From contig NZ_JACDUL010000004.1 in assembly GCF_013760955.1 (NCBI RefSeq), positions 234,700 to 285,801 on the forward strand: 51,102 bases of DNA, read 5' to 3'. The position numbers and the translations under genes were made by a program. The DNA comes from Methanococcus maripaludis. GTDB taxonomy: Archaea; AGJL01; Methanococci; Methanococcales; Methanococcaceae. Positions 7,962 to 44,290 of the stretch are shown here, one piece after another. The notes below the pieces were generated by a model. That model saw nothing but the letters and a program-made list of their open reading frames with translations. It made no database searches and was not told the DNA's origin. Positions within the stretch are counted from its first letter, which is position 1, and each line of letters starts with the position of its first letter.

Positions 7962-7964
7962 TTT
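7909..7964 (+). repeat. attL: 56-bp attachment repeat inside tRNA-Ser
   Basis: It runs from the anticodon loop (CTGCTAATCCCG) through the tRNA 3' end and three bases beyond, identical to 40688-40743. Crossover within this block rebuilds a complete tRNA gene at the left end. Confidence 0.93.
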
Positions 7965-8033
7965 AACTTTTTTCTGAAAATATTAACTGATTTTGATTAC
8001 ATTTTACGCGTATTTTTTCGGTTTAACGACGGG

Positions 8034-23561: not shown

Positions 23562-25130
23562 TTAATTGGATTTTATATTCATTTCAGAGAGAACTATATC
23601 TTCTATTTTCCGCCTTATTTCTCGCATATTATCCTCATGAATCAGATCTTTTAATTTAGTAATAATATTATCTTTATTAAAAGTTATTCCAAGCACATTT
23701 TCTAATTCTTCGATCAGTTCCACACTATATTTTTCGACATATCGGGATTTATCTTCTGCTTTCAAGGGATTAAAGAAATATTTCATATCAAATCTTGAAC
23801 GCAGTGCTTCAGGTATAACTGTACTATAATTATTTTTATCAAGATTGGAAGTAAAAATAATAATATATCCATTTAAGTCATGTTCAATGCCTGCTCGATC
23901 AGTGAATTTCCCATCTTCCAACAATTCATAGAAAAAATTAAATACTGTTTCATCTGCTTTTTCAAATTCATCAATAAGAATTACTTTGGACTCGGATACT
24001 TTAATTTTATTAATTAATTCACCCCCTCTTTCACTTCCCCTATATCCCAAAGGTGATCCAATTAAACTATTCAAAACACCTTCTGTTGAATAATTTCCAA
24101 AATTTAATTTAATCTGTTCGCAATTTGGATACATTTTTTGTGATATGATTCTTGCAAATTCTGTTTTTCCGACCCCGGATTTTCCACAAAGAAATATGGA
24201 TAAAATTTTTCTACGAGCAATTTTGTTTAAATATCTGAATTTTAATAAATTAAATCCAAAATCAGTTTTAAAATCTTCATGACCTTGTAAATTCTCATTT
24301 ACATGATTAATTATTGAATATGCCTCTTTTTCAATGGTTTCACAACTAATATCTAAAGACGATGTTAATACGCTATCCTCATCAAATCCATTAAATTTTT
24401 GAGATTTATCAAAATTAAATGGGAAAAATTCAGTTAAAACGTCAAATAAATCTTCCCTAATTAAATATTTCACGTTATTCTTTTTTGATAGTTTATAAAA
24501 TACCGATTCACATGAAAAAATTAGTTCTTTTCGGATTTTTAAAAGATCAATAAGTGATGTAAGATCAATATAATACTCCTCGTAATTACTCAGTTTATCA
24601 AAATCTATGTTGAATATTGATCCATTGGGGTCCTTAATTAGTTGTGTGAAATTGAATATATTATCAAAATTCTTAAATTTGGAAATGCCCTCCCGGTTGG
24701 GATAAGTGTAGACTGTATTAATATTGAAAAGTGTAGTTTTTAATTCTTCAACATCTGTTGTTTTTGTTTCATTGGTGGTTAAACATTCAAATATTTCGTC
24801 ATGTTCAAACAAAAAGGGATAAACCTTCAAAAAATTATTTTTCTCATTTGAATCAATAGTATATACAATTTCTGGAAAATTATCGTTCAATTCGAGAATG
24901 TATCTTTCTAAAAGTGATTTCCCATACTTATTACTATAAAATGTATCATAAAAAACATTTGTAATATCCACTGCATTATTTTGGAGTTCAAGATCTTCTA
25001 TATCCTCAATCATGGGGGCTTCCACAATTATTGAAGATAATGTAATGATTTTGTATTCATTAAGTTCTTTTTTCAGGGTTTCTAAACTATCGATGTCATA
25101 AACGTATAATTTATTCAATTGACTCACCAT
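23562..25130 (-). CDS. ClpB/HslU-type AAA+ ATPase
   Basis: 522 residues. The first 290 show no known domain. The AAA_2 core follows: Walker A GKSGVGKT (316-323), GSPLGYRG (358-365) corresponding to the GAPPGYVG segment of Clp/Hsp100 proteins, Walker B VILIDE (383-388), sensor-1 TSN (427-429) and an arginine finger in ALRSRFD (442-448). Only one AAA module is present and there is no ClpP-binding loop I can see. The ATG at 25130 lacks a ribosome-binding site; a TTG at 25118 sits five bases after GGTGA and may be the real start. The gene overlaps the membrane-protein gene upstream, so the two are probably made together and act as a pair. Confidence 0.78.
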   Translation of the reverse strand: MVSQLNKLYVYDIDSLETLKKELNEYKIITLSSIIVEAPMIEDIEDLELQNNAVDITNVFYDTFYSNKYGKSLLERYILELNDNFPEIVYTIDSNEKNNFLKVYPFLFEHDEIFECLTTNETKTTDVEELKTTLFNINTVYTYPNREGISKFKNFDNIFNFTQLIKDPNGSIFNIDFDKLSNYEEYYIDLTSLIDLLKIRKELIFSCESVFYKLSKKNNVKYLIREDLFDVLTEFFPFNFDKSQKFNGFDEDSVLTSSLDISCETIEKEAYSIINHVNENLQGHEDFKTDFGFNLLKFRYLNKIARRKILSIFLCGKSGVGKTEFARIISQKMYPNCEQIKLNFGNYSTEGVLNSLIGSPLGYRGSERGGELINKIKVSESKVILIDEFEKADETVFNFFYELLEDGKFTDRAGIEHDLNGYIIIFTSNLDKNNYSTVIPEALRSRFDMKYFFNPLKAEDKSRYVEKYSVELIEELENVLGITFNKDNIITKLKDLIHEDNMREIRRKIEDIVLSEMNIKSN

Positions 25131-26334
25131 CCTGAATTTTAAGTTCTTGAATTATAGCAATCAAATCGATTAAGTGATATTCGCCCTCAAGTTTAGTATA
25201 TTCAGGAAATTTCGTCTTTTGCACAGGTTCTGTTTTTGAACTATCTTTTAAGCCACAGTTATTTGACGTCCCAATTCGATCATCGTTGTTAGTGGACTTT
25301 GACAATAATTCAAAGAATTTTGATGAAATACTGTCCATTTCGGAGAAATTAACTTTTCCACGGTATATTCCTATTACACTAAGTTCGCCCATTTGTAAAT
25401 CATTATGCGAATAACTGTTTTCAAAATATTCTCTCGAATTATACGGGATCCTAATTAAATACTCTGTATCCTCATTATCGATATTAAATGTGTAATCAAT
25501 GGTAAAATCATCTAACATTCCAGTAATTACTTCTGAAATGTTGAATTCAAAGCCACTATCATTTTTAACCTGTTTTAGATTTCCATTTGCTAAAAAATTT
25601 AAAAACATAATCAAATTATCGGTATTTCGTTGAGATAATTCCACATTTTTAAATAATAATATCTCCCCTAAATTTTTACTTAAGGGCTGGTTTTTAAGTT
25701 TAGAATAGATTTCTCTGAGCATTATTGATTTAGTTGTTTTTACGTCAAAACTTTCATAAACACTCTTTTTACTACGGTTTTCATTTATTTGGTTTATAGT
25801 TGGTACACCTAGCTTATCTAGGTTTAAGGAAACATCCGATTTTGAAGTTTCCTCTTGACTGTGCTGTTTTTCTACGGTTTTCATTATTTTATTATCTAAC
25901 AGCATTGCAATTTCATGAACTTTTGATATGTTTATATAAAAAAGATTAAATAGCTCGTTATTTTCTACATAATCGTGCGATTCATCGCTTTTAACATTAT
26001 TTGTGGCAATTCTTAAAGTAATAAATGAAATAAGCGAAATTAATACTAAAATATGGCCTTGAAATGTGATCAAGTAGTCATTTATAACTTTTATCTGTGT
26101 CAATAGTGCCAACACTATTATTGAATAGATTACAACTATTGATAAATCATGTACTGACATATATTCCTTTTTAAATGTTTTTTGAAGTAGATAAACTATT
26201 AAAAATAAAATTGGGGGAAGCAATGCCCACCATATATTTAAAACTGCAAAATATCCTGAATGGTAAACCCCCAACGATATAAAACTTAGGACTAATGTTC
26301 CAAAGATGATGTCTGCTTTAAAATGTTCTTTCAC
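25111..26334 (-). CDS. membrane protein coupled to the ClpB-like ATPase (407 aa)
   Basis: GTG start after AGGGGATTAC. The first 110 residues hold four hydrophobic helices (IIFGTLVLSFISLGVYHSGY, LLPPILFLIVYLL, LSIVVIYSIIVLALL, HILVLISLISFITLRI). About 290 residues of soluble, acidic sequence follow. The 3' end overlaps the ATPase gene by up to 20 bases, indicating translational coupling. A membrane sensor paired with a Clp-type unfoldase is a plausible two-gene defence or stress system; this is inference from context. No family recognised. Confidence 0.7.
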   Translation of the reverse strand: MKEHFKADIIFGTLVLSFISLGVYHSGYFAVLNIWWALLPPILFLIVYLLQKTFKKEYMSVHDLSIVVIYSIIVLALLTQIKVINDYLITFQGHILVLISLISFITLRIATNNVKSDESHDYVENNELFNLFYINISKVHEIAMLLDNKIMKTVEKQHSQEETSKSDVSLNLDKLGVPTINQINENRSKKSVYESFDVKTTKSIMLREIYSKLKNQPLSKNLGEILLFKNVELSQRNTDNLIMFLNFLANGNLKQVKNDSGFEFNISEVITGMLDDFTIDYTFNIDNEDTEYLIRIPYNSREYFENSYSHNDLQMGELSVIGIYRGKVNFSEMDSISSKFFELLSKSTNNDDRIGTSNNCGLKDSSKTEPVQKTKFPEYTKLEGEYHLIDLIAIIQELKIQDGESIE

Positions 26335-27800: not shown

Positions 27801-28352
27801 TTATCTTTTTTTCAAATAATTATAAAGTGTATATTTACTTATTCCAGTAGCTTTTAAAATCTGTTTTACTTCGTATTCTTTTGAATCATACATTTTTAAA
27901 GCTAATTCGACCTGGTTTATATCTGCTTTAGGTCTTCCACCCTGACGGCCTCTTGATCGAGCTGCTTTTAATCCTGATTTTACTCTTTCAGAAATTAAAT
28001 CTCTTTCAAATTCTGCCAATCCTGCAAAAATAGTAAAAAGTAGTTTTCCATGTGCTGATGAAGTGTCAAGCCATGATTCTTTTAAACATTTAACAGAAAC
28101 TCCCATTTCTTCTAATCTAGTCATTATTTCGATTAAATCTTTGGTACTTCTTGAAAGTCTTGTTAATTCACTAACAATCACCATGTCTCCAGGACGTAAA
28201 ACTTCAAACATTCTATCAAATTCAGGTCTGTTCTTTTTAGTTCCTGAGATTTTCTCTAAAAATATCTTTTCACAACCTGCTTTCTTCAACTCATCAATCT
28301 GTCTTTCTAATTTCTGATCTTTCGTTGACACTCTTGCATAGCCTATTATCAT
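27801..28352 (-). CDS. serine recombinase (resolvase/invertase family)
   Basis: 183 residues with all family landmarks: catalytic Ser9 in YARVSTKDQ, LSRSTKDLIEI, the E-helix FAGLAEFERDLISER, and a C-terminal helix-turn-helix (VKQILKATGISKYTLYNYLKKR) after the GRPK hinge. Length matches small resolvases and invertases rather than large serine integrases or IS607-type TnpA. It could resolve multimers, invert a segment or maintain the element. ATG after CGTGATAAC. It lies at the border between the accessory zone and the structural operon. Confidence 0.92.
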   Translation of the reverse strand: MIIGYARVSTKDQKLERQIDELKKAGCEKIFLEKISGTKKNRPEFDRMFEVLRPGDMVIVSELTRLSRSTKDLIEIMTRLEEMGVSVKCLKESWLDTSSAHGKLLFTIFAGLAEFERDLISERVKSGLKAARSRGRQGGRPKADINQVELALKMYDSKEYEVKQILKATGISKYTLYNYLKKR

Positions 28353-28509: not shown

Positions 28510-28638
28510 CTAACCATTCCCTTTTTTTCGAGCTTCTTCTTTTAATTCTTTACTTGATTTTGGAAAACAAATGAATAAAAATGCTACAATCGCCCCTAAA
28601 ACTAACATATAACCTGCAATTTTAAAATAAATATTCAT
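28510..28638 (-). CDS. single-helix membrane peptide (42 aa)
   Basis: ATG after GGAAAGGGGAT. The product opens MNIYFKIAGYMLVLGAIVAF, a single membrane helix, followed by a charged tail KELKEEARKKGNG. It lies 13 bases beyond the 125-aa membrane protein and is the last gene of the long leftward operon. Role unknown; small phage-like membrane proteins are typical here. Confidence 0.55.
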   Translation of the reverse strand: MNIYFKIAGYMLVLGAIVAFLFICFPKSSKELKEEARKKGNG

Positions 28639-28651
28639 CTTATCCCCTTTC

Positions 28652-29029
28652 CTATTTTATCACTTCAACACTAACTGAAAGACCTTTATTGCCCGCATGA
28701 ACTAATTTATCAACCAGTAAACTATCATCAATCCTTTCCAGAAGGTCCATTTCTTCAGAGTTTCCATCTGAATAATTCACCCTTACTTTTGAATACCATA
28801 ATCCATGTTTTTTCCGGTATTTTCGCTCTTGATAATCCCCGTATATCCTAGATCCGATAACACCTACTCCAAAAATACCAATAGCGATATTTTCATTAAA
28901 ATAAATTACTTTTAAAAGAGATAATACGCCATAGATCCCGATAATCATCAAAACATATTTTATACATTTAAAGAATACTCTTTTACTCATATTAAACTCA
29001 ATATCTGTATTTTTAGATTCAAAATTCAT
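28652..29029 (-). CDS. two-helix membrane protein (125 aa)
   Basis: Two adjacent hydrophobic helices (CIKYVLMIIGIYGVLSLLKV and IAIGIFGVGVIGSRIYG) occupy residues 20-65, then a basic segment (YQERKYRKKHG) and a short soluble domain. The start overlaps the end of the 134-aa gene (ATGA-type junction), so it is co-translated with it. No family recognised. Confidence 0.65.
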   Translation of the reverse strand: MNFESKNTDIEFNMSKRVFFKCIKYVLMIIGIYGVLSLLKVIYFNENIAIGIFGVGVIGSRIYGDYQERKYRKKHGLWYSKVRVNYSDGNSEEMDLLERIDDSLLVDKLVHAGNKGLSVSVEVIK

Positions 29030-29400
29030 TTTAAATCATCTCTTTCAAATTTTTGAGAATATATTTTTTCTAAAATTTCAATTTCACTTAAAGCTTCCAG
29101 GAGCTCACACTCCAATTCATGATTTTCAGGCCATCCTAAATCATGAAGTTTAACCTCAGCATCATCATAATCAGACTCAAAACTTTCCCTAAATGAATAG
29201 ATATTCTTTTTTAAAGCTACAACTTTAGATTTGGCAACGGTGAGCCCCCATGCTTTATCTTTTTGTAGTTTACAAACCACAAAACCAAATTCTTCAGAAG
29301 TTTTAAAATCAAGTTTTTCTGCTGCTTCTTCAACAGTAAAGAATTCAACAGAATAACCTGCTTTTTCCAATCCGTTAATTAATCTATCACCATATTTCAA
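29026..29400 (-). CDS. hypothetical protein (124 aa)
   Basis: I chose the TTG at 29400, five bases after GGGTGTT; an ATG at 29430 would add ten residues but overlaps the upstream gene and has no good ribosome-binding site. The protein is soluble and acidic at its end (EALSEIEILEKIYSQKFERDDLK). It lies between the acidic 174-aa protein and a membrane protein in the operon. No family recognised. Confidence 0.6.
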   Translation of the reverse strand: MKYGDRLINGLEKAGYSVEFFTVEEAAEKLDFKTSEEFGFVVCKLQKDKAWGLTVAKSKVVALKKNIYSFRESFESDYDDAEVKLHDLGWPENHELECELLEALSEIEILEKIYSQKFERDDLK

Positions 29401-29416
29401 GATAAACACCCGAAAA

Positions 29417-29941
29417 CTAAAGGTTATCATCTAAAATTTCCCTTAAATAAATAATATTTTCCCCTATCTTTTTTGAAGTTCTTTTAACGTCTTTTTGATA
29501 AGAAGAATTATGGATTTCTTTTAAATCTTCCAAAATATCAATAATTGTTTTATTCATTACCTTTTCGAGGTGGACCGACTTTTTTCTTCCTGCAGTTCTT
29601 CCAGGGTTTTCCCCATTTTCTTCATCAAAATTTTCAGGTGAAGCCCTGGATCTTCCAGTTGGTATGTCAAAACTGATGGGGCTTTCTGAAGGGGTTTTTT
29701 CTTCATGTTCTTCCTGTTTTATGGGGGCAAGGTCCGCTTCAATTTCTTCTTCAGGGGTTCCTTTTTCATGTTTTTCTTCTTTTTCAACAATTTTTTCTTC
29801 AGTATTTTCAGGTTCATCTGGTCCTTCAGTATTCTCTTCATCAAAATTTTCAGGCCCTACTTTTCCAGGATCTTCAACAATTTTTTCTTCAGGAGTTTTT
29901 TGCCCTGGAACTACAAAATCCCCTTCAATTTCTTCAGCCAA
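29417..29941 (-). CDS. highly acidic, Pro/Glu-rich low-complexity protein (174 aa)
   Basis: TTG start three bases after GGTGAT. Residues 1-120 are almost free of hydrophobic core and contain repeated blocks such as GPENFDEENTEGP and SPENFDEENGENPG, with stretches of Glu. Only the last 50 residues look folded (KTIIDILEDLKEIHNSSYQKD). It is probably disordered with a C-terminal helical anchor. Its close operon with the HerA-like ATPase suggests a virion scaffold, linker or regulator. No homologue recognised. Confidence 0.65.
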   Translation of the reverse strand: MAEEIEGDFVVPGQKTPEEKIVEDPGKVGPENFDEENTEGPDEPENTEEKIVEKEEKHEKGTPEEEIEADLAPIKQEEHEEKTPSESPISFDIPTGRSRASPENFDEENGENPGRTAGRKKSVHLEKVMNKTIIDILEDLKEIHNSSYQKDVKRTSKKIGENIIYLREILDDNL

Positions 29942-29951
29942 AAAATCACCC

Positions 29952-30701
29952 TCACATCATTTCATTTTTCATCTTGTTAATGGCATTATCAAATGAAAAT
30001 TCCCCACCTTCAAAGCTTTTTTCTTTGGTGCTCTTTCTGCTGCTTTCCTTTTCACTTCCTTTGTACATTTTCATTGTAGGATTAATGTATAACGCAGCAT
30101 CAACAAGGTTTGGAATATCTTCAGATAATAGATTTTCACACATCATTTCATAAGCCTCAGCACGTTTCCTTTCAACAATCCAAGCTACTCTCTGTCTTGG
30201 ATCATCAGCTTCTAGGGGAACAGCATGTCTCACAAAATTTGCATATTTATCATCCCTGAAGTGATCAACAAAAAACATAATTATATCTTCAGAAATGTCA
30301 ACACAGGATTTAGGAGCATAAACTATTGCATAATGGCGTTTATAACTAAAAAAAGTTGATTTGATAGTTATTATTAAATCTTCAAGCCAGTCTGTGGCCT
30401 TATTTTTATATAAAATTTTATAAGTTCCTTCATCAGGAATAACTGCATGAGGGTAACCAAAAACCTTCGCACCGGATCCATTATGCCAAATTAAGAGTTT
30501 TTGTTTGCATAAATATGGAGCAAGAGAATCATAGGCTTCTTTTTCAGCATTATTTTTTTCTTTTTTATTCTTCACTTTTTGTCCTGGAGTATATTCATCA
30601 TCCAGTTCTTCAGTATTTTCTTCAACTTTTTCTTCAGGTCCTGCATGTCTGGGACCTGGATCACTTTTCTTTTTAAATCCAAGAATATTCCAAAAACCCA
30701 A
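29952..30701 (-). CDS. hypothetical protein following the HerA-like ATPase (249 aa)
   Basis: I chose the TTG at 30701, five bases after the AGGTGA that overlaps the ATPase stop. A short acidic linker (VEENTEELDDEYTPG) is followed by a folded alpha/beta domain (residues 60-210) containing HNGSGAKVFGYPHAV and AIVYAPKSCVDISEDI, then a charged Lys/Glu/Ser-rich tail. Its immediate position after the ATPase suggests a partner in packaging or secretion. No family recognised. Confidence 0.65.
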   Translation of the reverse strand: MGFWNILGFKKKSDPGPRHAGPEEKVEENTEELDDEYTPGQKVKNKKEKNNAEKEAYDSLAPYLCKQKLLIWHNGSGAKVFGYPHAVIPDEGTYKILYKNKATDWLEDLIITIKSTFFSYKRHYAIVYAPKSCVDISEDIIMFFVDHFRDDKYANFVRHAVPLEADDPRQRVAWIVERKRAEAYEMMCENLLSEDIPNLVDAALYINPTMKMYKGSEKESSRKSTKEKSFEGGEFSFDNAINKMKNEMM

Positions 30702-30710
30702 AAAAATCAC

Positions 30711-32063
30711 CTACAAGCTCTGTGGCTGCCTGTATTCAATATGTTCTGTGTAATCTTTATTATACGAAAAATAGCCCCTAAATCGAAGTTTTCTTTTTAA
30801 ACTCTCATATTCTGAAAGACTTCCTGGTTCATCAAAGTCAACCACGTCTTTGAAGTCTGGAATTAATTTTTCAAGAGTTTTGGTATCTGTGTTTGATGCT
30901 AATTTTCCCATAATTCCAATATGGCTTGAGCCAATCAGAACGTCTTTAGGTAAATTATCTGTGTATTGTGTTGCACAGATTAAATTAATACACAAAGACC
31001 TTCCTTCTCTTAAAATCTTATCAATGGCCCATTTTCCTGCAGGATCCCTCATGAAATTTTGGACCTCATCTGCAACAAAAAACACAGGGATTCTGTATTT
31101 TATTGCAACGTTTATCGCATGTTGAACTACCAATTTAAAAATTAAACATTCTTCAAAGGAATCGAGCTCTGAATTCTGTGAAAAATCAAGGATATTTATT
31201 TTTTTGTTTGTGATCTGTTTTAAAAAAGAATGTTTTGAATCCCCTGAAAATAACGAATCAGACCTTAAACGGTTCATTGTTTCCTCAATCCTTAAATAAG
31301 TCTGAGAAGGTCCAGAATTAAACGTTTCATAACTTGCAGCTATATTCAAAACTTCTCCAGGTTCTCTAATTTTTTGAATATCCCAAATATTTTTTAAGAT
31401 TGCAGAATATCTTGCAGTTTCTGAAAAATTATTCATATCTGCAATTATTTCAAAAGGAATGTCTGGATAAGCCAGTTTTGAATCAACTGTTTCTGTTAGT
31501 GGCCCATTATCAAAAGCAATATCTTTAATATTTCTTCGAGGTCTGAACACGAAACGCCTTGCAGGATATGCTGCAGGGCTTAAACCATGCCTTCCCAGAA
31601 GTGATTTGTATTCATCTGATTCCATTTTTGTGTATTTTCCGAGAATATTTGGAAAACCAATGGAAAAATCACCCATTAAGCCATATTTTAACTCTTTGTC
31701 ATTTTCAAGTTCATTAACGTAATGTTCGATATAATTCCAGATTCCTTCACCGTATTTACGTGAAAGTTGTGCTGAACTTAGTTTTTCAGATTCCTCATGG
31801 TAAATTTCAATTACTTTTTTAGGTTTTGAAGTATCAACTTTCCTTTCAATCACAATAATTATGGGTGGAATTCCTGCATCTGAATAACTTGAATAAATTT
31901 CTTCTATCATTCCACGCATTATCGTGGTTTTTCCGTAACCGGATTTTCCTAAAAGAGTTATATGGTTTGCTTCATCGTTTTTAAGGTCTAAAGTTCTTTT
32001 TGTTCGTTCTCCATGTTTTTTCGTTGAATCTGCCCTTCCAATACCTAAATTTATTAATACCAT
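30711..32063 (-). CDS. HerA/FtsK-superfamily ATPase (packaging or conjugation motor)
   Basis: 450 residues. Walker A GKSGYGKTT (39-47), a long insertion, ILDFS (291-295), Walker B VFFVADE (327-333) and the ATQ motif (364-366) are in the order typical of HerA, VirB4 and TraG-type hexameric motors. The strong AGGAGGTCTAAAA leader supports the ATG start. In archaeal viruses and conjugative plasmids such ATPases pump DNA or drive secretion. It separates the membrane/surface genes upstream from the acidic and unknown proteins downstream. The closest relatives may be the ATPases of pT26-2-like elements, an inference from context. Confidence 0.85.
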   Translation of the reverse strand: MVLINLGIGRADSTKKHGERTKRTLDLKNDEANHITLLGKSGYGKTTIMRGMIEEIYSSYSDAGIPPIIIVIERKVDTSKPKKVIEIYHEESEKLSSAQLSRKYGEGIWNYIEHYVNELENDKELKYGLMGDFSIGFPNILGKYTKMESDEYKSLLGRHGLSPAAYPARRFVFRPRRNIKDIAFDNGPLTETVDSKLAYPDIPFEIIADMNNFSETARYSAILKNIWDIQKIREPGEVLNIAASYETFNSGPSQTYLRIEETMNRLRSDSLFSGDSKHSFLKQITNKKINILDFSQNSELDSFEECLIFKLVVQHAINVAIKYRIPVFFVADEVQNFMRDPAGKWAIDKILREGRSLCINLICATQYTDNLPKDVLIGSSHIGIMGKLASNTDTKTLEKLIPDFKDVVDFDEPGSLSEYESLKRKLRFRGYFSYNKDYTEHIEYRQPQSL

Positions 32064-32103
32064 TTTTAGACCTCCTATACCTTAAAATGCCAAAATCCCA
32101 GGG

Positions 32104-32182
32104 TTTGGGTACTGGTGGTACCGGTGTTACCGGCGGTACTGGTGGTACCAGACAATAAAAAAAACTAAAAAAATGGGTACCA
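32104..32182. repeat. GGTACC-rich repeat before the HerA-like ATPase gene
   Basis: GGTACTGGTGGTACC occurs twice (32108-32122 and 32135-32149), with GGTGTTACCGGC between the copies and a further GGTACC at 32176. The block is far richer in G and C than its surroundings. It lies in the only sizeable gap inside the operon, so it may be a regulatory or DNA-recognition (packaging) site. Confidence 0.55.
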
Positions 32183-32190
32183 CACGTAAA

Positions 32191-32730
32191 TTAAATTTCA
32201 AAATCGAATTGTTTTTTTCTCTTTCTGAGTATCAAAAATAACACTAAACATACTATTACTCCGACTAAAACACCAAGTTTAAAGTTATTTACAGTTTTTA
32301 CAGCATTATTGTATGCCCCTGCATTGATGTCCTTAGTATCGTTGCTCTGGGTGTTAATCAGGTCTGTAATCATATCCTGATAGCCCTCATTTTGAGTTTT
32401 TAAAATTTCCTTTTCAGCTTCTATCAGTTTAATCTTTGAATTAAGCGTTGTAATGTTTTCTTTTAGTTCAACGTTCTCTTTTTTAGCCACGATATAACTT
32501 GAAAGCTGTTTATCTTTTTCACGAAGTTCTTCTTTTAATGTTGTAATGTTTTGTTTCAACTCATGGACCAGGGCATTCTGACCTGAAACCATATTGCCAT
32601 CATACACGATCAACGTCGAATAGTTCAGATCATCGTAATCTGTCAAAACATAAACTGTTTCATTGTCACTATGTGCGAAAACTCCTGGAAGAAAACAAAA
32701 CAACATAATTAAAAACAGTTTTTTCTGCAT
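32191..32730 (-). CDS. exported coiled-coil protein with C-terminal membrane anchor (179 aa)
   Basis: A signal peptide (MQKKLFLIMLFCFLPGVFAH) is followed by a short exposed region, then a long coiled coil over residues 55-120 (LKQNITTLKEELREKDKQL, later IKLIEAEKEILKTQNEG). A C-terminal helix (LGVLVGVIVCLVLFLIL) and basic tail (RKRKKQ) follow. The layout is that of a rod-like surface or fibre protein anchored in a membrane. It sits downstream of the Ig-like and small membrane proteins in the virion-like operon. No family recognised. Confidence 0.7.
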   Translation of the reverse strand: MQKKLFLIMLFCFLPGVFAHSDNETVYVLTDYDDLNYSTLIVYDGNMVSGQNALVHELKQNITTLKEELREKDKQLSSYIVAKKENVELKENITTLNSKIKLIEAEKEILKTQNEGYQDMITDLINTQSNDTKDINAGAYNNAVKTVNNFKLGVLVGVIVCLVLFLILRKRKKQFDFEI

Positions 32731-32733
32731 GGG

Positions 32734-32859
32734 TTATAACCCTATTAAATTAGTAAGGGCACCAAAATTCACAGATAAAAACCCAGTAATATATCCAAAA
32801 ACCGCTAAAGTAGCACACAATATTAAAACCGTATAGAATCCTTTTGTAAACTGTTTCAT
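32734..32859 (-). CDS. single-helix membrane peptide (41 aa)
   Basis: ATG after AAGGTGATTTTA, one of the clearest ribosome-binding sites in the operon. The product opens MKQFTKGFYTVLILCATLAV and is almost entirely one membrane helix. It lies 12 bases before the 146-aa exported protein ends and is clearly part of the same transcript. A minor virion membrane protein is plausible. Confidence 0.6.
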   Translation of the reverse strand: MKQFTKGFYTVLILCATLAVFGYITGFLSVNFGALTNLIGL

Positions 32860-32871
32860 TAAAATCACCTT

Positions 32872-33312
32872 TTAAAATAATCCTTCCATATCAACATAGC
32901 CCTTTTCACGATTCACAGTAATATAACCCATGAACCGACCTGTGGTGCCCGTGTCACCAAAATAAAATTTAAATTTCCAATATTTTTCAGACTCTTCAAT
33001 TGATTTGGGTTCAACCCTGATCATCAAGCCCTTTGATTCTAATGAATTACCATATTCTTTGTCAATGTAATTCTGTGCAAGATAATATGCTTCTACCCCA
33101 CCGATTTCATACATTTTTGGAGGTTTAGTTAATTCTGATTTTGAACCGTCTTTATAATACACGGTTTCATTTGAAATGATGTATCCTGATGAAGGATAAC
33201 CAAATTTCAATAATTTTAACTGAATAATCTCTTCATCCGTTTTGGATGAGTTTGCTATTTGGAAAACAAGCAAAAAAATAATTAAAAATGTGAAGAAAAT
33301 TATTTTCTTCAT
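32872..33312 (-). CDS. exported small protein, unknown function (146 aa)
   Basis: The start is the ATG at 33312, five bases after GGTGA; an upstream GTG lies inside that site. The N-terminus (MKKIIFFTFLIIFLLVFQIA) is a signal peptide or membrane anchor. The mature part has a PepSY-like feel (EEIIQLKLLKFGYPSSG ... KFKFYFGDTGTTGRFMGYIT). No cysteines remain after the signal. I cannot assign a family with confidence. Confidence 0.65.
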   Translation of the reverse strand: MKKIIFFTFLIIFLLVFQIANSSKTDEEIIQLKLLKFGYPSSGYIISNETVYYKDGSKSELTKPPKMYEIGGVEAYYLAQNYIDKEYGNSLESKGLMIRVEPKSIEESEKYWKFKFYFGDTGTTGRFMGYITVNREKGYVDMEGLF

Positions 33313-33317
33313 TTCAA

Positions 33318-33797
33318 TCACCCTGTGATTCCAGGGATTGGGGGTAGTAAAGAAATGTTATGCCCATAGGTTGCGACAGTCGCACCGATCCACAAAAATA
33401 AAAATAATTCATCATCTCCAGTTTCTGGAGCCAGGATATATGCTGCACATATTCCTGCAGCAACAAGTGCAGGTGCTGAAATTGAACCTATTGAAAGATT
33501 AATAGTTCCAAGCGTAGCATAAAGAACCGCAACAAATGCGACAATGCCTGCGATAACTGTTTTAAGTAATCTGTTTGATGTGGTTTCAGGAAGTAGCCTT
33601 TTATGTAAATCATTAATATCTGCAAGTTTATCAAGGCCCTCTATTAACAGCACTACTGCAAAAGGAATGGAAGAAAGGGAAGTTGCAATTTCTGAAATTG
33701 TAACCACTTGTGTTCCAGTCCACCATAAGAGAGCAGCTGCTACAGCTGAAGCACCGACAGCTTTTGGAAGCCAGGCATCAAATGAAAAATTATCCAT
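33318..33797 (-). CDS. four-helix membrane protein A, candidate major virion membrane protein (159 aa)
   Basis: I chose the ATG at 33797 (MDNFSFDAWLPKAVG), preceded by AGGGTGATTTT; a frame extending upstream runs into the previous gene. It has four hydrophobic helices and ends in APETGDDELFLFLWIGATVATYG. It is paralogous to the 172-aa protein at 35259: both share an S-I-G-S loop, LAP-x-TG and WIGAT-x-AT in the same places. Two paralogous small four-helix proteins in one operon with surface proteins and a DNA-pumping ATPase resemble the membrane-protein sets of vesicle-like or spindle-shaped archaeal viruses. Confidence 0.72.
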   Translation of the reverse strand: MDNFSFDAWLPKAVGASAVAAALLWWTGTQVVTISEIATSLSSIPFAVVLLIEGLDKLADINDLHKRLLPETTSNRLLKTVIAGIVAFVAVLYATLGTINLSIGSISAPALVAAGICAAYILAPETGDDELFLFLWIGATVATYGHNISLLPPIPGITG

Positions 33798-33807
33798 AAA
33801 ATCACCC

Positions 33808-34545
33808 TTATCCTGCAATGGTGACATTAATCCATTCAGCACCTTCAGCAGGGAGTCTTGATGTGTTTTCATCACAGACAATTTCTAAGTAATAGTAAAG
33901 ATCTGTTTCAGTACTGTTTGCAGTGAACTCGAAAGTTCCTGGAAGATCTAAAGCAGTTGAATTTACGGTATTTGTGAATGTTGTGTTGTCATATGAAGTG
34001 AATAATAAAACATCAGCAGTTTTATTGTCTTCTGATGCGGAAAGCGAGAATAAAACAATTCCGGTGGTGTTATCAAAGTCAGGTACTGCAGTAAACGATA
34101 ATGCAGTTTCTTCAGTTTCTTCAGTAGTATTTTCAACAGTAATTTCTACAGTTTCATATGATCCTGCGTCTGTTGGCAATCTGTAAGTTTTATCGCTGTA
34201 TGAAACAACAGCATAGTAATAAATGGTTTCTTCGCCTGCTTCAGGCGTTACTTCTATATCAATAGGGAATGATACATCTTCAAAAGTATTCGTTTTAGTA
34301 AACGTTAATTCATCGTATGAAATAAACAGTTCAAGTGAATCTGCAGTTATATTTTCTTTTGAAGCATTAAATGTAATTAAAACATCACCAGTTTCACTGT
34401 CAAATGCCGCATCTGAAGAAAATGTTGTTCCAGTTGGAATGATAATTCCTCCAGATTCCCCTTGATTTAGATAATAATAGGAAGCCCCTGCAACGAGGAT
34501 CACTGCAATTGCAAGGCCAACCCATAAATTATTATTTTTAGCCAT
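33808..34545 (-). CDS. membrane-anchored protein with two Ig-like repeats (245 aa)
   Basis: ATG at 34545, five bases after GGTGA (a GTG in that site is not the start). An N-terminal helix (LWVGLAIAVILVAGASYYYL) anchors two tandem beta domains of about 90 residues. Aligned pieces are DAAFDSETGDVLITFNAS / VPDFDNTTGIVLFSLSAS, SYDELTFTKT / SYDNTTFTNT, and TIYYYAVVSYSDKTYRLP / DLYYYLEIVCDENTSRLP. Many N-X-S/T sequons indicate surface exposure. It may be a receptor-binding or spike component of the virion-like module. Confidence 0.75.
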   Translation of the reverse strand: MAKNNNLWVGLAIAVILVAGASYYYLNQGESGGIIIPTGTTFSSDAAFDSETGDVLITFNASKENITADSLELFISYDELTFTKTNTFEDVSFPIDIEVTPEAGEETIYYYAVVSYSDKTYRLPTDAGSYETVEITVENTTEETEETALSFTAVPDFDNTTGIVLFSLSASEDNKTADVLLFTSYDNTTFTNTVNSTALDLPGTFEFTANSTETDLYYYLEIVCDENTSRLPAEGAEWINVTIAG

Positions 34546-34550
34546 TATTT

Positions 34551-34679
34551 TCACCGTTTAGATTTTTTACCTTTATTTTTCTTCATTTCACTTCTACTCT
34601 TTTGAACTACGTTTCCCTTGCCGTCAACGTAACAAAAGGAGCCTTTTTTTCTTTTTACCTTACCAATAATTTCTGCCAT
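34551..34679 (-). CDS. small very basic protein (42 aa)
   Basis: ATG at 34679 preceded by GGAGGTATCGA, a near-perfect ribosome-binding site. Product starts MAEIIGKVKRKKGSFCYVDG and ends KKNKGKKSKR; over a third of residues are Lys or Arg. It overlaps the end of the preceding membrane-protein gene by 25 bases. A DNA-binding or virion-core peptide is plausible but unproven. Confidence 0.55.
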   Translation of the reverse strand: MAEIIGKVKRKKGSFCYVDGKGNVVQKSRSEMKKNKGKKSKR

Positions 34680-34891
34680 TCGATACCTCCAATTATTGAA
34701 ATAATCCTTTCGATTATCCCTGAAAAATCAAAGTTTGAAATGTCCAGGAATCCAAAATAAGATAATATAAAAACAACTGCGGTGGCAAGGAGTATTGCCT
34801 TAATATTTTTAATTAAAAGAGCTACGAGTACAATTATAACAATCTGAATCCAGTAGGATTGAATTATCGGAATTATTGATTCAAAGTTCAC
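34655..34891 (-). CDS. two-helix membrane protein (78 aa)
   Basis: GTG start behind GGTGAGGTTAT. Two hydrophobic helices (IQIVIIVLVALLI and AILLATAVVFILSYFGFL) are joined by a short basic turn (KNIK), the hairpin layout seen in small coat proteins of some archaeal viruses. That likeness is structural only. It lies in the middle of the membrane-protein block. Confidence 0.65.
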   Translation of the reverse strand: MNFESIIPIIQSYWIQIVIIVLVALLIKNIKAILLATAVVFILSYFGFLDISNFDFSGIIERIISIIGGIEWQKLLVR

Positions 34892-34906
34892 ATAACCTCA
34901 CCACCA

Positions 34907-35233
34907 CTATTTTTTACCTGCATTGGCTGCAGTCACAACTATTGCACCAAGACAAACACCAAGCATGATCCTTGAACATTCAAGGAAAATCTGGGAAACA
35001 TCCTGGTAATAATACAGCAAAATAAGTACAATTAAAACAAAAGAAGCGAGTAAATCGCCAAAATTCCACTTTTCAGAACCTATTTTCCATACACATATTA
35101 ACACAATAAGTGTTGGAACGATCCAAGAAAAAAGGCCAGGCAATCCAAGGACTTGGCCAACAACTTCTACCTGTGGTTTAAGAACCATAGATAGCACAAA
35201 AGACATGATAACTAAAATAAATTGATTAATCAT
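34907..35233 (-). CDS. polytopic small membrane protein (108 aa)
   Basis: ATG after AGGTGTAAATT. Four hydrophobic stretches (FILVIMSFVLSMVL, LFSWIVPTLIVLICVW, DLLASFVLIVLILLYY, IMLGVCLGAIVVTAA) fill the protein. It lies between the paralogous four-helix protein B and the two-helix protein and is tightly spaced with both. No family recognised. Confidence 0.65.
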   Translation of the reverse strand: MINQFILVIMSFVLSMVLKPQVEVVGQVLGLPGLFSWIVPTLIVLICVWKIGSEKWNFGDLLASFVLIVLILLYYYQDVSQIFLECSRIMLGVCLGAIVVTAANAGKK

Positions 35234-35258
35234 AATTTACACCTACATTTTAAACCAC

Positions 35259-35777
35259 CTAAAGCCCAAAGCCTGTGAAACTTGGAATTATCGTTAAGTA
35301 TGAACCCCATGTTGCAATTGTTGCACCAATCCACATGTATAAAAGAAGTTTTTCTTTCCCAGTGCTTGGAGCAAGCAGATACAGTGCAAATATTGATGCA
35401 ACTACTACGCTTGAAGCACCTGCTGAACCAATTGAAAATGTAATTGAACCAGACAGAGCCCAGAGGGTCACAAAGAACATACATACTACAGTTAATATAG
35501 TTAAACCAACAGCCACGTATCCATCATACTTTTTAAAGATTTTGGTGTAAACATCTGTATTCATATCAACTATGGTGTCGATGAGTTCAGCCATCAAATA
35601 AAAGACCAACGGAACTGCTGCAAGCCCCCTGACAACATCAGAGCCAATAACAGAATGATTCATTATATACCACATGATCCCTGCAAAACCAACTCCACAG
35701 CCAAGCATTTTCAAAATAAAAATAGTCCTGGAAGAAAATTTTGTAGGGCCAGTATCTTCTTTTTTATCCTTCGCCAA
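35259..35777 (-). CDS. four-helix membrane protein B, paralogue of the protein at 33318 (172 aa)
   Basis: TTG start after AAGGTGATTTTAT. A charged N-terminus (MAKDKKEDTGPTKFSSR) precedes four membrane helices. The last third (SITFSIGSAGASSVVVAS, LLAPSTGKEKLLLY, MWIGATIATWG) aligns with the same part of protein A. The paralogous pair suggests duplication of a main envelope protein, as seen for structural proteins of some small archaeal viruses. A frame on the same strand overlapping its second half is a shadow. Confidence 0.72.
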   Translation of the reverse strand: MAKDKKEDTGPTKFSSRTIFILKMLGCGVGFAGIMWYIMNHSVIGSDVVRGLAAVPLVFYLMAELIDTIVDMNTDVYTKIFKKYDGYVAVGLTILTVVCMFFVTLWALSGSITFSIGSAGASSVVVASIFALYLLAPSTGKEKLLLYMWIGATIATWGSYLTIIPSFTGFGL

Positions 35778-35793
35778 ATAAAATCACCTTATT

Positions 35794-36027
35794 TTATCGT
35801 TTAGGGTAATCTACATTAAGAAATCCAGGTTTTCCTTCCATGACATTGATATTTTCATAGGGGCCTGTATGAATTGCAATTGCAGTATCATCATCGGGAC
35901 GTACCTTGAAAAGTACTGCAGTACCTTCAACAGTGCAGCCTGTTTCTTTTTCAATCCGTTCTTCAAATTCATCCATTATAGAATCTATTTTTTTACATAC
36001 TACTGCGTCATTGTCATCATTTGACAA
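35794..36027 (-). CDS. small acidic hypothetical protein (77 aa)
   Basis: I chose the TTG at 36027, which follows AAGGTGGTTATT at normal spacing; the GTG upstream lies inside the ribosome-binding site. The protein (MSNDDNDAVVCKKIDSIMDE) is soluble and has a short beta-rich C-terminus. It is the only non-membrane protein in this stretch of the operon. No family recognised. Confidence 0.55.
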   Translation of the reverse strand: MSNDDNDAVVCKKIDSIMDEFEERIEKETGCTVEGTAVLFKVRPDDDTAIAIHTGPYENINVMEGKPGFLNVDYPKR

Positions 36028-36065
36028 AATAACCACCTTAAAAAAAGTTTTAAAAAAGTTATAAT

Positions 36066-38141
36066 TTACTTAATGAATCTAGTAACCAGTATTGTACCAC
36101 AGACAAGGACAACGATAACAATTACAAGCAGTGCTGCATCTGGAACGTCACCGATACCAAAACCAGACTTAAACTGAGTCCACCATTCAGAAACAGTGGA
36201 TCCTGCAGTAAACCATAAACTGGGTTCATACTCAGCTGCCAAACTTTCAAGCTTTTCAGCATTACTTGCGAGTGCATCTCCTTGATCATCAAGTCCTAAA
36301 TTGTATTTTGCTGCCGCTTCTTTCCAGTAGTCGCCAGCTGGCTCATAAACGTCCCCTGCAAGATATGTATAAACTTTTACTTCTTCAGGATCATCAGTAT
36401 TTTTGGCCTTTTCGTAGTACGCTGCTGCTTTTTCATAGTCTTCTAAAGCGTTTGAAATTGCATTTTTAGCTTTATCGTTATCTTCATATTTTCCAGATTC
36501 TGATTCTGCAACATACTGTTTTTCTTTTAAGCTTTCTTCAGACATTTGGATTATTTCAGTGATTCTTTGAGAATCACTATCTGAAATTGAGCCATCACTC
36601 ATTAATTCAAGGATTTCTTCTTTGAATTCCTCATTTAACGAATATTTCACGTTATCAATTACAGAAATACGCGGTTTAATAAGACACCAGACTGGAAGTG
36701 CTGAGTCAATTCCATCGTCAACATCTGCAACAACTAAAAAGTAGGTTTCAAAAGCTTCAGTACTGCTGTCTTTTAGATAATTAAGCGAAGTTGTAAGTCC
36801 AGTGTATGTAGACATATCGTGGAAGTTTCCAGGGGTATCTGAAGCAATTGATGCAACACCATCATCACGGAGTTTTAAAACTAAAGCTCTATAATCATCT
36901 TCAATAGTTACTGGAACAGGCTCTAAATTACCGGGCTGTCCGATAAGAACAAATCTGTACTGTGATGATGAATTATAGCAGTGTACGGGACTTGCCCAAA
37001 CTCGACCAATCACGTTAGAAGTAGCCCCATTTGAATATGAAGAGTAAGCAATTGGTGTCACTTCATTTATGTATGATGTAGGAAGTGAAGCATCAGCCCC
37101 ATCGATGTAGTAAGCACCGCTGTGGATTCTATCCCATGCTTCAAGAGTTGTGAGCTTTGTATCTAATGTAACTGAATCGTCATGTTCTTCTTTTGTGATA
37201 TAATCTTGGAGTTCATCACTCCACTTAGTTATTTTCTTGTAATGTTCAACGTGTCCGTCAATTTCAACAACAAGTTCAAATCGTTTAACTTCAGCATTTA
37301 TGAGCTCTTCAAGAATTTCCCTATTGGGTGCATTTGTAATTTGGGATTTTGCTTTTCCAATGTAGGGATCCGGTGCTTTCATTGTGAAGTTTATAATATA
37401 TTCTTCGATTGCCTCAGGATGATCGTCATTATTTTTTTGAAGTTTAATATTATCCGTATACTCTTTTTCATTCCATTTTACGCCTTCGGAATCTACAAGG
37501 TAAATTTTAACGTTTTCTATCTCAACATAGGAACTCTCTGAACCTGTTAATATTTCATCAAACTTCAGCTGAACTGGAAACGCAGAAAACCCATATATTT
37601 TGTCAGGCCCTTTCATTGAAACATCAACATCAGATAACGTTCCTGTAACAGTAAACTTGTATATCCCAATTTCTGATTCTAATTTATCTTTAATTTCTGC
37701 AATATCTTCTGCTGCACTTTCTTCTGAATACTGGCGGTATCCTGCAAGAAGGTCGTATTTGTACGTTCCATTAATGTATTCTCCATCAGACACGTTAGTC
37801 TTTGCAGCTCCTGTGACTGCACCACCTTCATCTTCTGCATCTGCTCCAGTAATCCATCTGTAACCATAATTGACTGCTAATGCACCTCCCACGGCACATG
37901 CAGCAACTACTGCAATAGGGACCCATGCAGGAGCTGTAACGGCTGCACCTCCTGCTGCAATTGCTGAAGTAAGGCCACCTACAATATATACGCCGGCTCC
38001 GGCTCCTACAAGTGCACCTGCACCTGCTGTTACTCCATCGCCTAGGCCAATATCATGCCCTAAAACAGAAAAAGCACTCGCAGAGGGTAAAGAAGCAATT
38101 AAAAAAATGCAAAAAATAGAAAATAGTTTTGAATTTATCAT
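36066..38141 (-). CDS. large exported/membrane protein with N-terminal hydrophobic hairpin and C-terminal anchor (691 aa)
   Basis: A signal peptide (MINSKLFSIFCIFLIASLPS) is followed by a Gly/Ala-rich hydrophobic hairpin at residues 38-98 (AGAGALVGAGAGVYIVGG, then WVPIAVVAACAVGGALAV), resembling a fusion- or pore-type segment. About 550 residues of mixed soluble sequence come next, including a helical region with tetratricopeptide-like spacing (YEKAAAYYEKAKNTDDPEE). A final membrane helix (ALLVIVIVVLVCGTILVT) ends in RFIK. Its start overlaps the stop of the PEGA-domain gene (ATGA), so they are co-translated and may form one surface complex. Confidence 0.75.
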   Translation of the reverse strand: MINSKLFSIFCIFLIASLPSASAFSVLGHDIGLGDGVTAGAGALVGAGAGVYIVGGLTSAIAAGGAAVTAPAWVPIAVVAACAVGGALAVNYGYRWITGADAEDEGGAVTGAAKTNVSDGEYINGTYKYDLLAGYRQYSEESAAEDIAEIKDKLESEIGIYKFTVTGTLSDVDVSMKGPDKIYGFSAFPVQLKFDEILTGSESSYVEIENVKIYLVDSEGVKWNEKEYTDNIKLQKNNDDHPEAIEEYIINFTMKAPDPYIGKAKSQITNAPNREILEELINAEVKRFELVVEIDGHVEHYKKITKWSDELQDYITKEEHDDSVTLDTKLTTLEAWDRIHSGAYYIDGADASLPTSYINEVTPIAYSSYSNGATSNVIGRVWASPVHCYNSSSQYRFVLIGQPGNLEPVPVTIEDDYRALVLKLRDDGVASIASDTPGNFHDMSTYTGLTTSLNYLKDSSTEAFETYFLVVADVDDGIDSALPVWCLIKPRISVIDNVKYSLNEEFKEEILELMSDGSISDSDSQRITEIIQMSEESLKEKQYVAESESGKYEDNDKAKNAISNALEDYEKAAAYYEKAKNTDDPEEVKVYTYLAGDVYEPAGDYWKEAAAKYNLGLDDQGDALASNAEKLESLAAEYEPSLWFTAGSTVSEWWTQFKSGFGIGDVPDAALLVIVIVVLVCGTILVTRFIK

Positions 38142-40027
38142 TTTTTCAGCCTCAATGCTGCAAATGTTCCTGCAATTAAAAGAACTGCAGCAGCTAAAAG
38201 AATCAATGTTGTGTTACCTCCAGGAACTGAAGCCAGGAAAAGTGAACTTTCTGAAATAGTTAAAACAACATTTCCAGAATAAATCGCATCCGTTTTATCA
38301 GGATCAAATATTTCTAATGAAAGTTGGTAGTTTTCAAGTTCTAACTCTTCTGGAACTTCAAAAGAAATGTCAACTGTTTTGTCAACCGTTTCAGGGGCTA
38401 TTGAAAACGTTTTAGCAATTGATTCGTTATAAAACGGACAGGTTAACTCAGCAGTATAATATTTTACATTTGAAGTAGGGTTTGAGATCTTAAACTGAAC
38501 TGTTGCAACATTTCCTGAATTTGCAGTGATTTCTTCAGTAATCAAAGTTACTGGTTCAATTATTTCGATTGAATAATATGTTTTTACAGTTCCTGCTTTT
38601 GCAATTAATTCAATTGTATAGTCATCTGCATCATCAATTGGAACTTCAAACGTGTAATCACAGTATTCCAAAAGGCTGGTGCTTGAACTCCACTGTTCAA
38701 CATCTTCAGAATCGTAAAGAACCAGTAAAACTGAATAAGCAGTTCCAGACATGTCAGTTACTGTAATATCATTTGTTCCGATTCCAAAAGTTTCAGGCAT
38801 TTCGAGTAAAAATGGAAGTTCCAAAACTTCATAATTAATCGTTTCAAGGTTTGTGTAAGCTGTACCTTCGATATCTACGGCAGATAATTCAACAGTAAAT
38901 GTTTTTTGACCCCATGATGAAGGAGTTTTAAACTCAATCTCGAGATTTTGTGTATTTGTGATATCCCCTAAAATGTAAGATCCATCAGCTGCTTTTGGGA
39001 TCTCTTGAGTGTGGTAATAAACCTTGTTTACTTCAACCCCCGAAACCCTTAATTTTGTAGCATAAGCATCTTTAACAGGGGATACGTCCATCGAGAGAGT
39101 TCCAACAGAATTTGGGTATATTTCTTCAGAAAACTCTTTTGAAACTTGGAAAATAGCAGAATTTGGGGAAAGTGAAACAAATAACTCCGTTTCATTCTCA
39201 ATATTTACGTTGATATATTCGTACGCGTCCCAGTACCCTTCTTTCACTAGTTTTAAATTATATTCTCCTATCGGGATATCTATTTCTAAAAGTCCGCCGT
39301 TATCGGTTGTACCTAGTAATATATCCCCGTCATAGACTGCTGTTTCTGGTTCAGTATTGATCGACACAGTCCCCTGGTCGGGAGGTTCTATTAATGTAGT
39401 AACTAATGTATCATCATAATCTACATAATCAAAGATTGTTACAGAATAAAACCCGTAACCTTGGTATCCGGCACAACAAACCCTATGGTCATAGGTTCCC
39501 GAAACCGCCCTTGAAGTAAATTGACCAGAAACTGCATTTTTCCCCTCAGTATGGGCTAAGGACTCAGAATTAAAATACACGTATGATTCGGACCCATAAT
39601 AATCTCCACCAGTATAGGCCACTGCATAAATATACGCATATTGTGCGTTTTCAACATATCCGGTACGTGTCGTAGTTGATGTTGAATAATATGTTGTAAC
39701 AGTCGCAGGTTGATCCCCGATATATGCTACATATTCCCCCGAAAACGGCAATACTTTATTATTATATGCTAAAACCGTACAAAATCTTGCCAAATCTTTT
39801 TCCGAAGAAAAATACACTTTATTATCTCCATACCCAACAACTACCGGGATATAATGACTCCATGAAGTGGTGTTTAATGCTGAGAGCAATAATTCATCAG
39901 TATACGGATTATTTAGTATTACATAATAGTCGCTCGTTTGATCACTAGACGATATAGTTGTTGTACCTGCGTTTACTGTTGAAACACACAACAAAAGTAA
40001 TAAAAAAAGAATATAACGTTTAATCAA
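38138..40027 (-). CDS. large surface protein with PEGA-like domain and C-terminal anchor, candidate spike (629 aa)
   Basis: I chose the TTG at 40027, which follows GGTGGTTAAT and opens a clear signal peptide (MIKRYILFLLLLLCVSTVNA). The first 200 residues are Tyr/Ser/Thr-rich; a PEGA-like domain follows at about 215-290 (VSINTEPETAVYDGDILLGT ... EYNLKLVKEGYW). Several Ig-like beta domains come next, then a C-terminal helix (TTLILLAAAVLLIAGTFAAL) and RLKK. PEGA domains occur in surface-layer and receptor proteins. With the 691-aa partner it looks like the attachment or spike apparatus of the element. Confidence 0.78.
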   Translation of the reverse strand: MIKRYILFLLLLLCVSTVNAGTTTISSSDQTSDYYVILNNPYTDELLLSALNTTSWSHYIPVVVGYGDNKVYFSSEKDLARFCTVLAYNNKVLPFSGEYVAYIGDQPATVTTYYSTSTTTRTGYVENAQYAYIYAVAYTGGDYYGSESYVYFNSESLAHTEGKNAVSGQFTSRAVSGTYDHRVCCAGYQGYGFYSVTIFDYVDYDDTLVTTLIEPPDQGTVSINTEPETAVYDGDILLGTTDNGGLLEIDIPIGEYNLKLVKEGYWDAYEYINVNIENETELFVSLSPNSAIFQVSKEFSEEIYPNSVGTLSMDVSPVKDAYATKLRVSGVEVNKVYYHTQEIPKAADGSYILGDITNTQNLEIEFKTPSSWGQKTFTVELSAVDIEGTAYTNLETINYEVLELPFLLEMPETFGIGTNDITVTDMSGTAYSVLLVLYDSEDVEQWSSSTSLLEYCDYTFEVPIDDADDYTIELIAKAGTVKTYYSIEIIEPVTLITEEITANSGNVATVQFKISNPTSNVKYYTAELTCPFYNESIAKTFSIAPETVDKTVDISFEVPEELELENYQLSLEIFDPDKTDAIYSGNVVLTISESSLFLASVPGGNTTLILLAAAVLLIAGTFAALRLKK

Positions 40028-40028
40028 A

Positions 40029-40355
40029 TTAACCACCCACCAAAACGGTGTTTAATGCACTCTGCAAAATAATGTAATCTTTCAGGTGGTTTTTATCTCG
40101 TTTTAACTTGATAATCGAATTAAAAAAGTCTTTCTTTTGAATTTCAGATAAATTCAAATCTTTTGAAATTTTTCCAGCATTCATTTTCAAACTCTGAATG
40201 TTTGAACATTTTGCCTGATCTTTAACAAAATTGGTCTGTAATATTGAACAGTTTTTGTTACTTGTATGAACATTGACAGCTTTAACTTCGGATTTGTGAT
40301 AATCCTTTTCAAAATGTTCAACAGGATTTAAACAATACGGACAGATTTTAATCAA
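40029..40355 (-). CDS. small zinc-finger protein (108 aa)
   Basis: I chose the TTG at 40355, four bases after AAGGTGAT; longer frames upstream add an implausible hydrophobic leader without a ribosome-binding site. The N-terminus MIKICPYCLNPVEHFEKDYH holds a C-x2-C ... H-x5-H finger. The C-terminal half is helical (LNLSEIQKKDFFNSIIKLKRD). As the first gene of the long leftward operon it could be its transcription regulator. It overlaps the start region of the spike gene. Confidence 0.6.
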   Translation of the reverse strand: MIKICPYCLNPVEHFEKDYHKSEVKAVNVHTSNKNCSILQTNFVKDQAKCSNIQSLKMNAGKISKDLNLSEIQKKDFFNSIIKLKRDKNHLKDYIILQSALNTVLVGG

Positions 40356-40687
40356 AATAATCACCTTAAAAAATAAGATATAAGAATATATGGCATTAGC
40401 TAACAGGTAATGTTTCAATCACAGATATTAATCTCCTGAAACATGAAAAAAATACACTACATGATTTAATGTGTTAAAAAGAGATATATAGTGTTTATTA
40501 ATTTAATATAATGGAAATTATCCCGTATTATTTGATACAACAATTGTAAGTCCTCTGAATGCAGATGATCTAAAATTAATGATTACAAGACAACATATAA
40601 GGGTCTTTTAAAACAAAACTATTAAGCCGTTATTTTAAAAAAAGAAAGCATTTTAGAAATAAAAAATAAACCAAATTTTTTTAAGGT
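40356..40687. promoter_or_regulatory. right-end intergenic region with likely promoter of the structural operon
   Basis: On the minus strand a TATA-like ATATATTCTTATATC lies at 40378-40392, a short distance upstream of the first gene of the operon. A second AT-rich block (AGATATATAGTG, 40482-40493) may be an alternative. Imperfect GTTTCA...TGAAAC pairing occurs at 40413-40443. No gene is seen between here and the right attachment site. Confidence 0.4.
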
Positions 40688-40743
40688 CTGCTAATCCCGT
40701 TACGCTCTGCGTAACCCGAGTTCAAATCTCGGTCTCCGCGTTT
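40688..40743 (+). repeat. attR: 56-bp copy of the tRNA-Ser 3' end
   Basis: Identical to 7909-7964, from the anticodon loop through the discriminator base and three following bases. The acceptor and D-arm half is absent, so it is not a functional tRNA gene. It marks the element's right end. Confidence 0.93.
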
Positions 40744-40865
40744 CTCTTTTTACAGCGTTTAAAGCTCTTTTATTTCGTATTTTACAAGACCCGTTATAAC
40801 ATTATAGTCTATTTTGATAAATCTCAATTTTACGCTAAAAGCCCCCATTTTGAGCAGTCAAAAGT

Positions 40866-40949: not shown

Positions 40950-41100
40950 ACTTATATCAAAATTTTGGGACTAAAATATTATTCGCCACGAATAATTTTA
41001 ATAATTTAAGCGGATAAAACTGTTAAAATGCTGTTTTACAGATTTATCCAATTTTAAATTTTGAAATAGATCTTTTTTAAAGAATTTAAAAAAAGTATAT

Positions 41101-43426: not shown

Positions 43427-43432
43427 TTGATC

Positions 43433-44275: not shown

Positions 44276-44290
44276 ATGGGGGACAAATTA

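Follow-up and report, generated by a model that had tools for sequence, protein, structure and literature searches.

The pT26-2 plasmid family bears on the question of how archaeal plasmids without a capsid pass from cell to cell: its elements occur commonly in two orders, and the transfer role of their core is a hypothesis. The family is reportedly also treated by Soler in 2010, and a later survey delimits it. Its members include pT26-2, pGE2, pMEFER01, TKV2/3, and MMC7V1/V2, and they are recognized by seven core genes, namely t26-5p, 6p, 7p, 11p, 13p, 14p, and 15p (Badel et al., 2019; PMC6972569). The core has been proposed to be a novel mechanism of DNA or protein transfer, possibly through extracellular vesicles as in pR1SE, and its 14p has been likened to VirB4 and to the packaging ATPase of STIV2 (Badel et al., 2019; PMC6972569). 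pR1SE is a haloarchaeal plasmid which encodes a VirB4-like or packaging-like ATPase and multiple membrane proteins, and which spreads in self-encoded vesicles (PMC10818511). The pR1SE-like elements resemble the element described here in carrying plasmid-encoded membrane proteins and a packaging or VirB4-like ATPase and in having no recognizable capsid; however, there is no direct sequence conservation between pR1SE-like elements and the pT26-2 family (Badel et al., 2019; PMC6972569). In the literature, no experimental demonstration of a particle, of vesicle cargo, or of transfer was found for any pT26-2 member.

An integrated element of the pT26-2 family

The window, i.e., the whole stretch of 51,102 nucleotides of Methanococcus maripaludis DNA that was analyzed, contains an element of 32,836 bp between the outer ends of its repeats (7909-40744). 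These are two copies of a 57-nt perfect direct repeat which runs from the anticodon of tRNA-Ser(GCT) (gene at 7876-7962). The attL copy (7909..7965, plus strand) covers the 3′ half of the tRNA gene, and attR (40688..40744, plus strand) is the second copy. In the sister genome G001 the site is empty, and the flanks are adjacent on one strand: window positions 6156-7965 correspond to 1130347-1132154, and 40760-41061 to 1130029-1130330. The att repeat in tRNA-Ser together with the empty site shows that this is an integrated mobile element. The initial annotation had delimited a span of 28510-40355; the operon which it recognized there holds, and the whole unit is the larger, 32.8-kb element. The element is flanked by a CobN-like metal-chelatase gene (18-4352) and, beyond its other end, by genes (42347-48793) for a FecCD-type ABC transporter with a pair of binding proteins and for a pair of methyltransferases.

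Outside the core, the element carries on its minus strand an intact type II tyrosine integrase of 322 aa in its middle (15805..16773), a serine recombinase of the resolvase kind (27801..28352), and an AAA/DUF5906-like putative replication helicase of 726 aa (13615..15795). When the MCM of pMEFER01 was used as a tblastn query, nothing was found in the window, and the product of 13615..15795 showed no detected similarity to it. Two sets of defense cargo are also encoded on this strand: a candidate anti-phage pair, PDC-M37B/PDC-M37A, in the variable region (23562..26334) and an ApeA/HEPN defense protein, PDC-S58, near the attL end (9927..11261).

The module at 28510-40418 has all its genes on the minus strand with intergenic gaps of -74 to +127 bp, and thus forms a single leftward operon. 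Judged by its gene content, it is the core gene set of the known, chromosome-integrated archaeal plasmid family pT26-2. Iterated HMM searches against pT26-2, pGE2, pMEFER01, and other Methanococcales elements identified all seven core genes, and the gene order is that of the 12-gene region of the family, save that an additional copy of t26-7p lies between 10p and 11p. Plasmid relatives of t26-6p found by tblastn are pMEFER01, pGE2, and pT26-2.

The first gene of the module (40029..40418) occupies the t26-4p position and is conserved in nine Methanococcales loci. The spike candidate t26-5p (38138..40036), supported by Pfam, the iterated HMM, and a structure model, has a signal peptide, a swappable N-terminal head (residues ~24-216), a PEGA domain (223-291; Pfam E=7e-5), a beta-sandwich stalk (~300-595), and a C-terminal TM segment. 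Its neighbor t26-6p (36066..38141) combines a signal peptide with a hydrophobic hairpin (~43-94), two T26-6p Ig-like domains, a helical domain, and a C-terminal TM segment. It matches PF22265 (8e-61), PF22092 (3e-24), and PF20984 (3e-13), the three Pfam domains derived from t26-6p of the Thermococcus plasmid pT26-2, and the solved structure PDB 2wb7 (7e-41), the last aligning with residues 139-640 (~500 residues). An 80-aa soluble peptide (35794..36036) has relatives in two other Methanococcus elements only.

Next to it lie copy A of t26-7p (35259..35777) and a member of the t26-8p family (34907..35233), both multi-helix membrane proteins assigned by the iterated HMM. A small membrane protein (34655..34891) and an Ig-repeat protein with an N-terminal TM segment or signal (33808..34554) occupy the 9p and 10p positions; the latter product would be secreted or anchored, and its two halves resemble each other. 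Copy B of t26-7p (33318..33881) is a paralog of copy A with 28% identity. The duplication is seen in several Methanococcus elements (that of the window, L035, L039, and L040), and the gene is single in pT26-2, pGE2, and pMEFER01.

The operon continues with t26-11p, a core protein with a signal peptide or single TM segment (32872..33321), a peptide of 44 aa that has a single hydrophobic stretch (32734), and t26-13p, a core protein with a coiled coil and a C-terminal TM segment (32191..32730). The t26-14p product (30711..32063) is a HerA/FtsK-type ATPase (DUF87 E=1e-7 in Pfam; HerA chains in PDB) and a putative DNA pump. It is followed by the core protein t26-15p (29952..30710), by an acidic low-complexity protein (29417..29941) conserved after t26-15p in Methanococcales members, and by three distal accessory genes (29026-29430, 28652-29029, and 28510-28638).

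The gene content that had been read from the letters of this operon is borne out, i.e., the leftward arrangement with two paralogous four-helix proteins (the t26-7p copies), the small membrane peptides (34655, 34907, and 32734) with an Ig-repeat protein, the PEGA spike candidate, its partner with an internal hydrophobic hairpin, and the ATPase, whose pumping is putative. Likewise, the lack of a recognizable capsid protein agrees with the absence of capsid families from the Pfam and PHROGs matches of the operon proteins scanned. The initial annotation had also suspected an undescribed family, a claim which gives way to the pT26-2 family in view of the t26-6p Pfam and PDB 2wb7 matches and the full core set.

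The element follows the family in its core order, in its att site in tRNA-Ser from the anticodon to the 3′ end (family members sit at the 3′ end of tRNA genes, those for Ser or Leu in the case of Methanococcales, and have an att repeat), in its mid-element type II integrase, which is uninterrupted in Methanococcales members, and in a size within the range of 17-38 kb. It differs in the duplicated t26-7p, the two defense cargoes, the resolvase, and the lack of an MCM. One catalogued member comes very close, namely MMC7V2 of Methanococcus maripaludis C7 (1,436,513-1,469,347; 32,835 bp; att 56; tRNA-Ser; ‘MCM like’) (PMC6972569). The two compare as 32,835 versus 32,836 bp, as att repeats of 56 versus 57 nt, and as ‘MCM like’ versus no MCM found, with tRNA-Ser in both. 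Since the two correspond in length, in att size, in tRNA, and in lacking an MCM, the window element is probably the already catalogued MMC7V2; the agreement is a strong hint rather than proof. Another element of the pT26-2 type (type 1) in the same genome (G000:C2) resembles MMC7V1, with an MCM and a tRNA-Ser nearby; no att repeat was found for it. A scan of genome contigs for the family beyond its two orders gave Thermococcus MAGs and one stretch of 66 bases. This t26-6p-like stretch (L050:10001-10066) lies beside bacterial genes at the end of a contig of a Thiotrichales MAG and was discarded as a probable assembly chimera.

The t26-5p head and a second element type in Methanococcus

The N-terminal head of t26-5p, ~190 residues long (~24-216), varies independently of the remaining protein. 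The 5p of the window and its counterpart in a divergent second element of the host genome (G000:C1) share 96% identity in the head versus 19% in the body, and the DNA of the two heads is 93.8% identical over 634 nt, the match ending where the PEGA domain starts. The type-1 element of genome G004 shows the reverse pattern, with 28% in the head and 75% in the body. In G002 and G006, whose elements are nearly identical, 5p has 67% identity in the head versus 96% in the body. The tree of the bodies sets the two element types apart with support of 100/100. In the tree of the heads the types are intermingled, the supported branches require a minimum of four changes, and the AU test rejects a constraint of type-1 monophyly (p=3e-118). 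Of four genomes with both types, two (G000 and G004) have a common head in their co-resident elements, and two (G002 and G006) do not. Across 61 genomes searched, the head was confined to t26-5p proteins. On these comparisons, it is an exchangeable cassette which is traded with the second element type in the genus.

This second type is a syntenic unit found intact in five Methanococcus genomes (L036, L038, L045, L046, L047 with L051, L054-L058). It consists of an integrase, mostly with a small CopG-like gene before it, a replication-like protein of 450 aa, a membrane protein of ~490 aa, a P-loop ATPase of ~200 aa, small multi-helix proteins, and a PEGA protein, followed by 5p and 6p. Only 5p, 6p, and a PEGA domain are common to this type and to pT26-2; profile searches for 7p, 11p, 13p, 14p, and 15p found none of them in the second-type elements, and no att sites were found for these. 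The P-loop ATPase was considered as a 14p homolog and rejected, as the match is limited to the Walker-A motif over 34 columns.

One of the loci, L045, we take to be the counterpart of MmaC5_IP1. The latter, from M. maripaludis C5, was listed as a remnant that has two core genes and for which no limits are given (Badel et al., 2019; PMC6972569). It has the 5p/6p pair as in pT26-2, but is here one of five intact copies of the second type, which has an integrase, a replication-like protein, and a P-loop ATPase of its own. Such recurrence in conserved synteny speaks for a separate family of elements and not a remnant, with the 5p-6p pair as a separable unit used by two element families. As far as could be found, neither the head exchange nor the second element type has been reported in the literature.

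Being the sole part shared by two otherwise different element types, the 5p-6p pair gains support as a unit of attachment and entry. The head may be the distal recognition domain of the putative spike, and its swapping points to residues ~24-216 of 5p as the candidate domain for recognition of the recipient. In the structure model of 5p, the signal helix, the stalk (~300-595, with useful confidence), and the C-terminal anchor are seen; the head has a pLDDT of ~24 with no confident fold, and no binding domain was recognized in it. A fold search with 5p returned generic Ig/FN3 proteins only (TM <0.3), indicating no particular spike or fusogen. Glycan clusters differ strongly between Methanococcus strains (PMC12667266), and such strain-variable glycans are one plausible target of the putative recognition head.

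Possible action of the core and its alternatives

On balance, we favor reading the module as the transfer apparatus of a pT26-2-family plasmid residing in tRNA-Ser, and infer the following roles of its proteins. The membrane-anchored spike t26-5p would bind with its distal head a variable surface feature of the recipient, such as the S-layer or a glycan. Its constant partner t26-6p would breach or fuse membranes by means of the glycine-rich hydrophobic hairpin. The small multi-helix proteins 7p, 8p, 9p, and 11p may line a membrane patch or vesicle for DNA transfer, into which the HerA-like ATPase 14p would drive the plasmid DNA. That the DNA is delivered by vesicles or particles released from the cell seems somewhat likely, and delivery by direct cell contact rather doubtful. 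The former is preferred since neither a relaxase nor secretion components occur in the ORFs scanned and since pR1SE offers a precedent; the head exchange fits both routes alike. An envelope or transfer module, as the initial annotation had it, thus agrees with the published hypothesis, which the head swapping strengthens. This functional direction is plausible and was already published. It may further be proposed, tentatively, that pT26-2 and the second Methanococcus family both spread in self-encoded membrane particles with interchangeable 5p-6p, whose heads are traded within the cell to match the host surface. If so, such trading between unrelated elements would be a capsidless counterpart of the swapping of phage tail fibers.

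A conjugation-like apparatus, with 14p as the coupling ATPase, 5p as an adhesin joining the cells, and 6p with the small membrane proteins as the channel, is possible but unlikely. An exchangeable adhesin head would suit cell contact equally, and 14p belongs to the HerA/FtsK superfamily, which includes VirB4-like enzymes (Phyre2 result in PMC6972569). Matches to conjugation or pilus machinery had been named beforehand as speaking against a virion-like module. Apart from this kinship of 14p, Pfam matched no relaxase and no component of type IV secretion or of a pilus among the element ORFs scanned, which comprised part of the small ORFs; moreover, three free plasmids with t26-6p in PLSDB are typed as non-mobilizable. 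An undescribed enveloped virus of the pleolipovirus-like or spindle-like kind is very improbable. Its attraction lies in the layout, for a C-terminally anchored spike, small multi-helix proteins, and a packaging-type ATPase without any matched capsid family are what such a virus might encode. Members of the Pleolipoviridae have an anchored spike, a multi-helix envelope protein, and an NTPase. The likeness to the module is one of layout only, as no homologs of the pleolipovirus spike or membrane protein, in sequence or in fold, were identified in phage records, PHROGs, or BFVD. The scanned proteins also had no Pfam or PHROG match to a Fusellovirus-type major coat protein, although such profiles serve very short membrane proteins poorly. 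The module belongs by sequence to a plasmid family which includes free plasmids, and no viral relatives were found in 50,697 phage records (tblastn with 6p and 14p) or in IMG/VR scans (6p, the ATPase, and 7p). In addition, 6p has no PHROGs match, and the four-helix protein, whose predicted structure is of modest confidence, matched no viral fold in BFVD. Given its place in the pT26-2 family and the lack of viral relatives in these searches, a conventional virus appears unlikely; an undescribed one was rejected once t26-6p had matched in Pfam and PDB and the core set had proved complete.

There is slight probability, too, that the core has been domesticated as a surface or secretion system of benefit to the host, serving secretion, competition, or as a gene transfer agent. 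The core genes persist in elements which have lost their replication genes, and the deletion of TKV2/TKV3 slows the growth of T. kodakarensis (Badel et al., 2019; PMC6972569). Likewise, the homologous locus of M. thermolithotrophicus is highly transcribed (PMC9765008), an observation that also speaks for the favored transfer reading. However, with its integrase, att sites, and recombinase intact and its site empty in the sister genome, the window element looks mobile and not domesticated.
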